64,000 bases of DNA from Christiangramia gaetbulicola. GTDB taxonomy: Bacteria > Bacteroidota > Bacteroidia > Flavobacteriales > Flavobacteriaceae. Location: assembly GCF_003054225.1 (NCBI RefSeq), contig NZ_QBKQ01000001.1:620001-684000 (forward strand). Direction: 5' to 3'. Below are positions 21,516 through 37,677 of this stretch, piece by piece. Every line of letters begins with the position of its first letter. The stretch's first letter is position 1. The position numbers and the translations under genes were made by a program. Below the pieces are notes generated by a model. It saw nothing but the letters and a program-made list of their open reading frames with translations, did no database searches and was not told the origin of the DNA.

Positions 21516-21585
21516 CGTCACCCTGAACTTGTTTCAGGGTCTCAAAAAGATGCTGAAACTCCCGAAGAATCGGGACAGCATGACG
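21516..21585 (+). repeat. Two-hairpin GTCA/TGACG repeat element
   Basis: A 70-bp element begins CGTCA and ends TGACG. Hairpin 1 is CCCTGAA-N5-TTCAGGG; hairpin 2 is ATGCTG...CAGCAT with a nested CCCGA-N4-TCGGG. Its left 28 nt are identical to the left end of the GIY-YIG element at 29563. Confidence 0.9.
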
Positions 21586-22049: not shown

Positions 22050-22121
22050 CGTCACCCTGAACTTGTTTCAGGCTCTTTGGTTGAGATGCTGAAACTCCCG
22101 AAGCATCGGGACAGCATGACG
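22050..22121 (+). repeat. Two-hairpin GTCA/TGACG repeat element
   Basis: A 72-bp copy, CGTCACCCTGAACTTGTTTC at the left and CCCGAAGCATCGGGACAGCA then TGACG at the right. It is close to the copy at 21516, with the YciI gene between the two. Confidence 0.9.
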
Positions 22122-25171: not shown

Positions 25172-25229
25172 CGTCACCCTGAATTTATTTCAGGGTCTCC
25201 TGAGATGCTGAAACAAGTTCAGCATGACG
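25172..25229 (+). repeat. Two-hairpin element, gene-less copy of the GIY-YIG element
   Basis: A 58-bp element, CGTCACCCTGAA to CATGACG. Its last 29 nt, starting TGAGATGCTG, are identical to the right end of the element at 29563-29912, including the TGA that is the nuclease stop codon there. The left 28 nt differ from that element by two bases. Confidence 0.92.
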
Positions 25230-27130: not shown

Positions 27131-27206
27131 GATCCCTCGCCCGATTTCATCGGAATCGGAATGACAAAATTTTCCAATGTCATTTCGAACGCAGTGAGAA
27201 ATCTCC
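27131..27206 (+). repeat. GTCATTTCGA-type repeats
   Basis: Two parts: an end fragment (GATTTCATCGGAATCGGAATGAC, 27143-27164) and a starting fragment (GTCATTTCGAACGCAGTGAGAAATCTC, 27179-27205), separated by 14 nt. They are partial copies of the second subfamily. Confidence 0.65.
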
Positions 27207-29360: not shown

Positions 29361-29369
29361 GTTAATTAA

Positions 29370-29398
29370 ACCTCACAGGTTTTTAAAACCAGTGAGGT
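29370..29398 (+). terminator. Hairpin after the MutS-like gene
   Basis: ACCTCAC...GTGAGGT (7 bp) with an additional inner GGTTTT/AAAACC pairing. It has no U-run on the plus strand, so it may be a repeat-type hairpin and not a strong terminator. Confidence 0.45.
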
Positions 29399-29469
29399 CT
29401 GTTCGAAGATATAATGCGGTTAGAGTAGTCTCAACCTGAGATCGCTTCATTACATTCGCGATGACTTAT

Positions 29470-29533
29470 GTCACATTGAGCGCAGTCGAAATGTGATATC
29501 ATGATTAATGCTTCGACTCCGCTCAGCATGACG
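29470..29533 (+). repeat. Two-hairpin repeat, third sequence type
   Basis: Begins GTCACATT...AATGTGA (first hairpin) and ends ATGCT...AGCATGACG (second). The overall plan matches the CCCTGAA type but the stems differ. Confidence 0.75.
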
Positions 29534-29562
29534 GTTTTTATTATTTTTCTTCTGAACCTAAA

Positions 29563-29912
29563 CGTCACCCTGAACTTGTTTCAGGGTCTCTATCTTAATA
29601 AATGAAAACTAGTTATATCTACATACTATCAAACAAAAACCGATCTGTACTTTACATCGGAATAGCTAGTGAACTAATCAAAAGAATGACTGAGCATAAG
29701 AATAAAATAGGTTCAGACTTTTGCCGAAAATACAATCTTGAAGATTTACTCTATTTTGAAGAATTCACAGATATTAATAAAGCCATTGCTAGAGAAAAGC
29801 AATTAAAAAATTGGCATAAGGAATGGAAGTGGAATTTGATTAAAGAATCCAATCCAGACTTAAGAGATCTGTTTCCTGAATTATGAGATGCTGAAACAAG
29901 TTCAGCATGACG
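29563..29912 (+). mobile_element. Candidate mobile element: GIY-YIG nuclease gene inside a two-hairpin repeat
   Basis: 350 bp bounded by CGTCA (29563-29567) and TGACG (29908-29912). The left hairpin CCCTGAA-N5-TTCAGGG spans 29568-29586 and the right palindrome ATGCTGAA-N5-TTCAGCAT spans 29888-29908. Between them lies one complete GIY-YIG gene whose stop codon is the first base triplet of the right end. A copy without the gene is at 25172. Mobility is inferred from this comparison only. Confidence 0.65.
29602..29886 (+). CDS. Single-domain GIY-YIG nuclease
   Basis: This 94-residue protein has only the GIY-YIG fold. The GIY position reads as YIYIL (residues 5-9), the YIG motif is LYIGIA (about residues 18-23), the catalytic Arg lies in ELIKRMTEHKN and the Glu in LLYFEEFTDINKAIAREKQL. 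Members cut DNA with Mg2+. It resembles the UPF0213/YhbQ group. The gene has no partners except the repeat hairpins on each side, 15 nt after the left hairpin and 1 nt before the right one. A role in moving the repeat is possible. Confidence 0.88.
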   Translation: MKTSYIYILSNKNRSVLYIGIASELIKRMTEHKNKIGSDFCRKYNLEDLLYFEEFTDINKAIAREKQLKNWHKEWKWNLIKESNPDLRDLFPEL

Positions 29913-29928
29913 GTTTTTATTATTTAAA

Positions 29929-29957
29929 CGTCATCCTGAAATAGTTTCAGGGCCTTA
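29929..29957 (+). repeat. Left half of a two-hairpin repeat
   Basis: CGTCATCCTGAAATAGTTTCAGGG followed by CCTTATC, then the next gene. The right half is missing; the sequence runs into the promoter region of the metal-hydrolase gene. Confidence 0.7.
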
Positions 29958-31006: not shown

Positions 31007-31097
31007 CGTCATTCTGTCCCGAAGTTTCGGGAGTTTCAGAATCTCCGATTTCTGCCTATAACCGAAATTGAGACCCTGAAATAAATTCAGGGTGACG
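31007..31097 (+). repeat. Two-hairpin GTCA/TGACG repeat element, longer form
   Basis: A 91-bp copy: CGTCATTCTGTCCCGAAGTT...TCAGAATC as the left hairpin (reversed order of the usual right one) and ACCCTGAAATAAATTCAGGG then TGACG at the right. The two hairpin types are swapped, so this is the inverted orientation. Confidence 0.82.
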
Positions 31098-33753: not shown

Positions 33754-33821
33754 TTTCAATAGAGAATTTAAAATGGTTAATTGACAATTTTCTATCTCTA
33801 AACCAACAGAGACTTTTTTAT

Positions 33822-33891
33822 GTCATTTCGAAGAATTGAAACGACTGAGAAATCTAACTTCAAAGAGATTTATCTCTTTGATCGAAATGAC
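33822..33891 (+). repeat. GTCATTTCGA-type repeat element
   Basis: A 70-bp copy running GTCATTTCGAAG...GAGAAATC...GATCGAAATGAC, with an outer dyad GTCATTTCGA/TCGAAATGAC at the two ends and an inner CAAAGAGAT-TTATCTCTTTG hairpin. Confidence 0.8.
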
Positions 33892-33899
33892 AATTAAAA

Positions 33900-34206: not shown

Positions 34207-34212
34207 GATAGT

Positions 34213-34323
34213 GTCATTTCGAAGAAGCGAAGCGAATGAGAAATCTCTTTTGAACAAATTTCTCACGTTGGTCGAAATGACAAACTGATACTGAAACTTC
34301 CAAAGCTTCAGGACGGAATGACG
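34213..34323 (+). repeat. GTCATTTCGA-type repeat followed by a half-element of the other type
   Basis: 34213-34281 is a full copy with outer dyad GTCATTTCGA/TCGAAATGAC. After 6 nt, ATACTGAAACTTCCAAAGCT...GGAATGACG is a damaged right half of the CCCTGAA type. The two subfamilies are thus joined here. Confidence 0.72.
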
Positions 34324-37558: not shown

Positions 37559-37677
37559 AGATCCTGAAACTCCCGAGGCTTAGGGACAGGGTGACGCGCT
37601 GCATTTTTAGTTTATCGTCAAGCTGAACTAGTTTCAGCTTCTCAATTTAAAGACCCTGAAACAAGTTCAGGGTGACG
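37559..37677 (+). repeat. Two adjacent GTCA/TGACG repeats
   Basis: 37559-37596 is a right half ending GGTGACG; 37616-37677 is a full 62-bp copy (CGTCAAGCTGAA... to ...CAGGGTGACG). In the second, the hairpin contents are AGCTGAAC-TAG-TTTCAGCT and CCCTGAAACAAGTTCAGGG. Confidence 0.82.

Follow-up and report, generated by a model that had tools for sequence, protein, structure and literature searches.

If a large family of palindromic repeats is moved around genomes by an enzyme, then which enzyme is it? The available text of Di Nocera et al. (2013, PMC3733652) describes the CGTC-REP superfamily as repeats with a CGTC or TGTC tag, an 8-9 bp stem, and a 4-5 nt loop, whose pairs mostly have the tags outside ('HH') and whose short tail is mostly CCA. 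These repeats are found there in five phyla, with Bacteroidetes and alpha-Proteobacteria among the hosts and G. forsetii CGTC-positive; they are apparently without a dedicated transposase, and the mobilising enzyme, if any, is left open. In contrast to this absence of a dedicated transposase in the available text of PMC3733652, a GIY-YIG nuclease gene lies inside a pair of such repeats in the 64,000-nucleotide stretch of Christiangramia gaetbulicola DNA analysed here (the window). The term 'GIY-YIG' has 0 occurrences in PMC3733652.

A GIY-YIG gene inside a pair of CGTC hairpins

The gene-bearing element occupies 350 bp (29563..29912, + strand) and consists of a CGTC arm, the GIY-YIG gene, and a GACG arm, a tag-to-tag unit that is also found in relatives. 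Its left arm, CGTCACCCTGAACTTGTTTCAGGGTCTC (29563..29590, + strand), has a CGTC tag, the stem ACCCTGAA/TTCAGGGT, the loop CTTGT, and the tail CTC. The gene (29602..29886, + strand) runs from ATG to TGA and encodes 94 aa, and its stop codon TGA forms the first three bases of the right arm, TGAGATGCTGAAACAAGTTCAGCATGACG (29884..29912, - strand, on which it reads CGTCATGCTGAACTTGTTTCAGCATCTCA). Folding of both arms gives an unpaired CGTC tag, an 8-bp stem, and a 5-nt loop, with z = -3.8 and -4.4 (200 shuffles per arm). The arrangement described in the first-pass annotation, a nuclease gene enclosed by two CGTC-tagged hairpins with the tags outward, is thereby confirmed to the single-base level.

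The window repeats fit the CGTC-REP superfamily, the arms having the tag, stem, and loop described for it. The listed window pairs are outward, but outward pairs may or may not predominate over the genome as a whole. The tail differs, being CTC in the window arms and mostly CCA in the available text of PMC3733652; at the 80 contig loci discussed below, the majority of the listed arms have CCA or CTA.

Gene-less pairs, to which no strand is assigned, are also present. An outward pair of 58 bp (25172..25229), identified by sequence and fold, has the same 29-nt right arm as the element, starting with the bases that serve there as the stop TGA, and a left arm with 2 differences; a 70-bp pair (21516..21585), likewise identified by sequence and fold, has a left arm whose 28 nt are identical to those of the element and a right arm whose hairpin is longer. 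Both of these identities had been noted before and hold. Beyond the copies noted before, sequence searches revealed pairs at 22050..22121 (72 bp), 31007..31097, and 37616..37677, and a lone CGTC arm just outside the gene-bearing element (29929..29956, + strand). In the relatives, a pair is present at the place of 31007..31097 in G199 and none in G216, and the pair at 37616..37677 is present in G212, with a single arm there in G199 and G216; these are differences of presence and absence, but at these sites in the three genomes no clean junction or target duplication was found. Since its tags are complementary, the 58-nt gene-less pair could also close as a clover (centroid structure).

In the whole 3.64-Mb genome, CGTCAYSCTGAA has 51 occurrences, compared to 1 for the reversed control, and repeats are clustered in this portion of the window. 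Genome-wide, close neighbours of one motif are 4 outward, 3 inward, and 2 same-way, a count in which partners with other stems are invisible to the motif.

Directly upstream of the element is a hairpin-like repeat (29505-29546) that ends CTCAGCATGACG and has 24 nt (TCAGCATGACGGTTTTTATTATTT, at 29523 and 29902) in common with the right arm and outer flank of the element. A weak match to the Rfam sRNA family RF02901 over the upstream repeats (29367-29539; 28.3 bits vs a cut-off of 97) is probably due to chance, and no match to an intron or other RNA family around the nuclease gene scored as high as the Rfam gathering cut-off. Membership of a phage family was rejected, there being no PHROG match. 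The window also has palindromic repeats of a second family (GTCATTTCGAA...GAGAAATCTC type), at 27178-27202, 33821-33893, and 34212-34283.

The nuclease and the arms around its relatives

The window nuclease belongs to the GIY-YIG superfamily by its domain (Pfam GIY-YIG PF01541, E 2.9e-16), which is the only one in its 94 aa, and by its conserved positions, with Y7, Y18, G20, R28, E65, and N84 invariant in an alignment of 26 sequences. In GIY-YIG enzymes, such Tyr, Arg, Glu, and Asn residues are catalytic. No NCBIfam family scores above its cut-off for this protein. The nearest solved structures by profile are UPF0213 / prokaryotic Slx1-like proteins (PDB 1zg2, E 4.9e-5, and 1ywl, E 0.0017). 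A structure model of the nuclease (pLDDT 93.5) retrieves 1zg2 first (E 1.1e-3; 23% identity), then the structure-specific nuclease Slx1 and UvrC, with no match at E <= 0.001, and the Slx1-like fold, taken alone, suggests a possible tie to hairpin or branched DNA. In the available text of PMC1564403, Slx1 is without the C-terminal Asn, whereas N84, near the C terminus, is invariant here, although the two may not be the same Asn.

Five matches to the nuclease at E <= 0.001 are present in the window genome, of which that in the window alone is strong; for the other four, identity across the matched region is 33-35%. These other GIY-YIG genes were rejected as members, with arms at 0/4. A further small GIY-YIG subfamily, from the host's family, was rejected as well, with arms at 0/9, a set in which one gene has only 94 nt of left flank and two are window-genome genes counted in the 0/4. 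Two small GIY-YIG genes of a different subfamily without CGTC arms (L003 and L005, G000:C3:21189-21837) are 95% identical and 400 bp apart, and a tRNA-like 3' end (GGTTCGAATCCCTTCGCGCCCAC, by eye) shortly precedes each of them.

Under a relaxed rule applied to three samples, relatives of the window nuclease have a flanking hairpin on at least one side in 118/133 cases and on both sides in 75/133, compared to 86/1128 and 11/1128, respectively, for control ORFs of the same loci. The samples are the best-scoring matches of their searches, none picked by flanks, and comprise 75 contig, 29 family, and 29 Sphingomonadales loci; one gene (L113 = L183) belongs to two of the samples. Both arms and any arm, respectively, were found at 40/75 and 68/75 contig loci, at 15/29 and 22/29 family loci, and at 20/29 and 28/29 Sphingomonadales loci (1/30 left out, short flank). 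Under a strict rule, both sides of 37/75 contig loci and at least one side of 66/75 (5/80 left out, short flanks) have arms, compared to 5 and 85, respectively, of 1126 control ORFs of the same loci. Swapping the tags under the strict rule gave hits on any side at 3/75 loci for GTAG (upstream only), 0/75 for CTGC, and 2/75 for GCAG. When the strict misses were read by eye, arm-like repeats were apparent in L067, L070, L095, L106, L110, L175, L176, and L182, and the strict counts are therefore low. Among 219 unique genes (232 loci, further copies included), 127 have both arms, 51 have an arm on one side, 35 have none, and 6 lie at a contig edge, such that 35/213 unique genes with full flanks are without an arm by the relaxed rule. 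That the gene and the repeats form one association is supported by the frequency of both arms relative to the control ORFs, and by the absence of arms in the other subfamily.

The contig sample consists of the best 80 of 565 confirmed relatives among the matches listed (named genome contigs). By record title, the hosts of these 80 belong to Pseudomonadota, Planctomycetota, Chloroflexota, Nitrospirota, Myxococcota, Thermodesulfobacteriota, Rifleibacteriota, and CPR groups, and at least one arm was found in every phylum or group listed, for CPR in Moranbacteria and Nomurabacteria. The gene and its arms occur together in hosts of at least nine phyla named in record titles.

A protein search gave 33 matches in plasmid records, some from species or genera that PMC3733652 mentions as well (Sinorhizobium meliloti, Azospirillum lipoferum, Novosphingobium aromaticivorans, and Neisseria). 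The flanks of 12 of the 33 were read by eye; outward CGTC arms are plain in L037, L038, L039, L041, L042, and L046. Repeats of this kind surround L040, and the remaining five loci have nothing plain. In a thirteenth plasmid locus, the N. gonorrhoeae homologue lies within CGTCATTCCCGC arrays, and repeats of this type are equated with dRS3 in the available text of PMC3733652. The L040 gene, on plasmid p3 of Azospirillum lipoferum 4B, is located between sufB and sufC in an iron-sulfur gene cluster. A homologue on a Planktothrix agardhii plasmid (L035) lies between an MmeI-type restriction enzyme gene and DISARM drmA, with TGTCATTCTGAG-type repeats around it.

The two arms of an element match each other. 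For 82 two-arm loci, the identity of left and right stems is 0.877, versus 0.592 for shuffled partners (2000 shuffles, highest 0.668), and loop length is equal on both sides in 77/82. Multi-nuclease genomes provided 80 loci in 19 genomes (52 with both arms and 63 with any), of which 49 elements of 14 genomes were tested; within one genome, arm identity inside an element is 0.929 versus 0.702 shuffled, with 0/5000 shuffles as high, and loop-length agreement is 0.939 versus 0.670. For instance, G378 has seven nucleases, with six arm types around six of them and none around the seventh. In a tree of 152 nuclease proteins, loop length (118 labelled rows) undergoes 11 changes versus 38.8 when shuffled, with 0/500 as low; because this tree has few columns, many open forks, and near-copies that cluster with themselves, clustering alone is claimed. 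The arms follow the nuclease lineage. The arm ATGCTGAACTTGTTTCAGCAT is common to the Sphingomonadales clade and the window's family, though the tree places their nucleases in separate regions.

Genome-level numbers were compared in two samples, in both of which shared ancestry is uncorrected. Among 199 genomes of the host's family, the 93 with the gene at E <= 1e-10 hold 585 repeat copies and the 106 without it hold 59 (mean 6.3 vs 0.6), and the repeat pattern is present in 63/93 and 17/106, respectively. None of the searched pattern was found in 30/93 family genomes with the gene, one of which (G002) has arms of another type, and the family genomes that have repeats without a recognised gene include G164 with 17, G132 with 10, G198 with 9, and three with 3-4. 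Among 147 Sphingomonadales genomes, 67 of which have a strong gene (E < 1e-25), the median is 7 copies with the gene versus 1 without it, and the mean is 17.9 versus 4.4; at least 5 copies are present in 39/67 and 19/80, respectively, and 7/67 with the gene have none. Repeat-rich exceptions without the gene include G245 (64), G320 (41), and G354 (23). A general pattern scan of 14 genomes with the gene placed 13 clearly above the control, but not G223 (8 vs 5). Equal abundance of the repeats in genomes without the gene, which the first-pass annotation had named as evidence against its reading, was not seen; they are much rarer there, some genomes excepted.

Unit boundaries, dispersed copies, and residence

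From 113 unique two-arm loci, 143 pairs (77 loci) were obtained in which the gene lies within a similar stretch no longer than 500 nt. On the left and on the right alike, the median distance between the end of the similarity and the tag is 0 nt. Both ends lie within 5 nt of the tags in 62/143 pairs and within 15 nt in 79/143; the similarity runs past the tag by more than 15 nt in 9/143 pairs on the left and 8/143 on the right, and the rest fall short on at least one side. For example, L103, L093, L084, and L086, from different hosts, have 77-90% DNA identity over 320-376 columns, and, where flanks of 700 nt were available, no match was found in them beyond the unit in either direction. Tag to tag is typically the unit shared between different hosts, and similarity rarely extends further. 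Another 21 pairs have more than 500 nt in common, flanks included, a sign either of one inherited site or of larger repeats common to both loci.

In the 3.3-Mb genome G345, whose matches are on one contig, 18 same-type arms with at most 2 mismatches were found, compared to 0 for the control. Fourteen of the 18 make up four full elements (~370 bp) and three shorter pairs, and four arms are alone. The shorter pairs (141, 270, and 254 bp at 1007828, 1060687, and 3022076, respectively) have kept both ends and parts of the gene, with the middle gone, and in one full element (499003) the gene is broken by an internal stop and by a frame shift early on. The full copies are at separate places and their flanks mostly differ, with the left flank of F1 and F2 common over at least 60 nt. 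Thus both dispersed copies with differing flanks and same-ended, internally deleted copies are found in one genome. Similarity between these copies continues past the left tag for ~20-25 nt and past the right tag for ~8 nt, or for ~30 nt in some pairs, and the moved unit in G345 may extend slightly beyond the tags. The proposal that the unit is exactly 'CGTCA...TGACG' is therefore not valid in every genome.

A single site beside fnrL in Sphingobium has both forms. Among the 7 of 11 listed Tom strains that were read, the arm-flanked gene is present in TomTYG46, TomMM7A, and TomTYG73; its place is taken by one palindrome carrying both tags in TomTYG64 and TomTYG74; and TomTYG72 and TomTYG65 lack gene and palindrome alike. 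Together with the full and deleted elements of G345, this site bears out the earlier suggestion that gene-bearing and gene-less forms are related; the first-pass interpretation as a whole is supported in part. Shinella relatives were rejected as empty sites, the intergenic DNA being too diverged for placing a junction. In another genome (L185 / G261:C5:159050 and 159628), two nuclease genes of equal score lie 578 bp apart, probably because the unit was duplicated in tandem.

In the window's genus, 24 genomes were considered and 19 loci were read. The gene with its arms is at the same site in G000, G199, G221, G203, G208, and G201 (6/19 loci, the window's included); G203 has two units in tandem there, one with a stop (by eye). 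At this site G212 and G219 have repeats only and G216 has nothing. G221 differs from G219 by one spacer-arm-gene-arm unit between two right-arm copies, as their recombination would give (by eye). Fresh movement within the genus, from the presence of the unit at one site in G000 and at another ~2.4 kb away in G212, was rejected; differential loss of two old copies is likelier, because G201 and G208 have two matches ~2.4 kb apart. No target-site duplication and no clean insertion junction were found in the own-genus comparisons, and the units look mostly inherited and lost, not freshly moved. Similarly, in family relatives from several genera (L013, L020, L022, L023, and L024), the unit is at one conserved place with similar sequence on both sides, as read by eye and, for four of the five, as found in the pairwise comparison, and is therefore of long residence. 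A gene at the same place without arms, which had been proposed as an argument against the unit, was not seen in the relatives read (own-genus loci; L013, L020, L022, and L023). Most copies now look old and resident, as RAYTs are.

A candidate partner for CGTC REPs and the alternatives

We consider it probable that the element is a CGTC-type 'REPtron', in which a small GIY-YIG gene lies inside an outward CGTC hairpin pair and the gene-less CGTC repeats are non-autonomous derivatives. The nuclease would recognise its own hairpin in single-stranded DNA (lagging strand, repair, or DNA uptake) and nick near the tag, after which host repair or replication would link the released or copied strand to a new site. 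GIY-YIG enzymes hydrolyse DNA and keep no covalent link to it, and the strand joining would therefore have to fall to host functions. In favour of this reading are the frequency of flanking hairpins relative to control ORFs and swapped tags, the matched arms, the clustering of loop type on the nuclease tree, the unit boundaries at the tags, the full and deleted elements of G345, the two forms at the Sphingobium site, the higher repeat numbers in genomes with the gene, the lack of a Y1_Tnp match in the window genome, and the fold matches to UPF0213 and Slx1. Against it count the 35/213 genes without an arm, the genomes with the gene but none of the searched pattern (30/93 and 7/67), the repeat-rich genomes without a recognised gene, the own-genus comparisons in which no target-site duplication or clean junction was found, and the long residence indicated by the 21 shared-flank pairs. 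To our knowledge, a hydrolytic nuclease alone is no known transposase type, which also counts against this reading. From the sequence comparisons, the nuclease is likely to be the partner of a large repeat family that seemingly has none. Given a matched nuclease inside the repeat pair, the question of which enzyme mobilises CGTC REPs becomes directly testable, the many enzyme-hairpin pairs would form a natural series on hairpin reading by a 94-aa nuclease, and the REP/RAYT problem would gain a second, independent solution.

A broader proposition, to which we give even chances, is that CGTC REPs are not orphans. Autonomous parents of ~350 bp, with a GIY-YIG hairpin nuclease as the sole enzyme, would be alive in many phyla as minimal mobile elements that move through single-stranded DNA, with host repair and a hydrolytic nuclease taking the place of a transposase, and with diversified enzyme-hairpin specificities, often several per genome.

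In comparison to the REPIN/RAYT systems and REPtrons described in the available text of PMC3116915 and PMC8266576, the present system likewise has one small enzyme gene beside inverted hairpin pairs, matched enzyme-repeat sets, several distinctive enzymes per genome, and gene-less derivatives. However, in the same text, RAYTs are HUH transposases akin to IS200/IS605 whose repeats carry GTAG tags, and each kind has one copy per genome, whereas here the enzyme is an unrelated GIY-YIG nuclease, the tags are CGTC, and the gene form can be multi-copy (G345). In the whole window genome there is no match to the HUH Y1 transposase family PF01797, and the tags of the element are CGTC, not GTAG.

By titles and term counts, no paper joining GIY-YIG with REP-type repeats was found among the open-access papers listed. 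The 'Ssn' GIY-YIG nucleases of Chenal et al. in Nat Commun in 2025 are reportedly site-specific for single-stranded DNA and act on Neisseria NTS repeats, and that paper is said to report cleavage and transformation in Neisseria and many homologues with their own target sequences. By resemblance, and as a lead only, these probably belong to the same enzyme family as the window nuclease; the Neisseria homologue here lies within CGTCATTCCCGC arrays. The Ssn paper lowers the novelty of the enzyme-repeat link, and if it reports repeats around the genes, then the association has been published before; even so, the identity with CGTC REPs and the evidence for parents and derivatives may be new.

A first alternative, which we regard as unlikely, is that the system is resident and serves genome dynamics without being mobile. 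The nuclease would process repeats in single-stranded DNA (e.g. during natural transformation or repair), and the arms would be its targets or regulatory sites. The role in transformation that 'Ssn' reportedly has in Neisseria would agree with this. Many copies are indeed old and vertically kept, as the 21 shared-flank pairs and the 6/19 own-genus loci indicate, and the N. gonorrhoeae homologue lies within arrays of the dRS3 type (following the available text of PMC3733652). However, a resident system is at odds with the dispersed full and internally deleted copies of G345, and with the similarity of units from different hosts, which stops at the tags or close to them.

It is quite improbable that the gene spreads by homing-like conversion, in which the nuclease would cut gene-less pairs and the gene would be copied in by break repair between the arms. 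Like GIY-YIG homing endonucleases, this nuclease is encoded by a gene that may help its own spread, the arms supply homology on both sides, and gene-bearing and gene-less forms occur at one Sphingobium site. Unlike those enzymes, the window nuclease has a single domain, no intron family scores up to its Rfam cut-off around the gene, and its target is uninterrupted: if, as we infer, the arm is the recognition site, then the gene does not interrupt it, and with both arms complete in the gene-bearing form the site is not destroyed. The full copies of G345 at separate places, with flanks that mostly differ apart from the shared left flank of F1 and F2, also argue against conversion.

Very improbable is the view that the nuclease gene is a passenger and that the repeats are spread by another enzyme (RAYT or an IS transposase) or by recombination. 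Some genomes without a recognised nuclease are repeat-rich, and the own-genus gains and losses of units between arm copies resemble recombination. However, arms and nuclease are matched, even where one genome has several nucleases, and in the window's 99.99% complete genome no match to Y1_Tnp was found in a search limited to PF01797 among transposase families; RAYT or IS200 was rejected as the mover on this basis, and a RAYT is therefore unlikely to be moving the repeats here now.

Lastly, it is scarcely credible that repeats common in intergenic DNA, or a hot-spot, merely received the gene by chance, since although the repeats are clustered in this portion of the window, this reading is already contradicted by the control ORFs with both arms (11/1128), the other small GIY-YIG subfamily (0/9), and the matching of arms across loci (0.877 vs 0.592) and within the same genome (0.929 vs 0.702).
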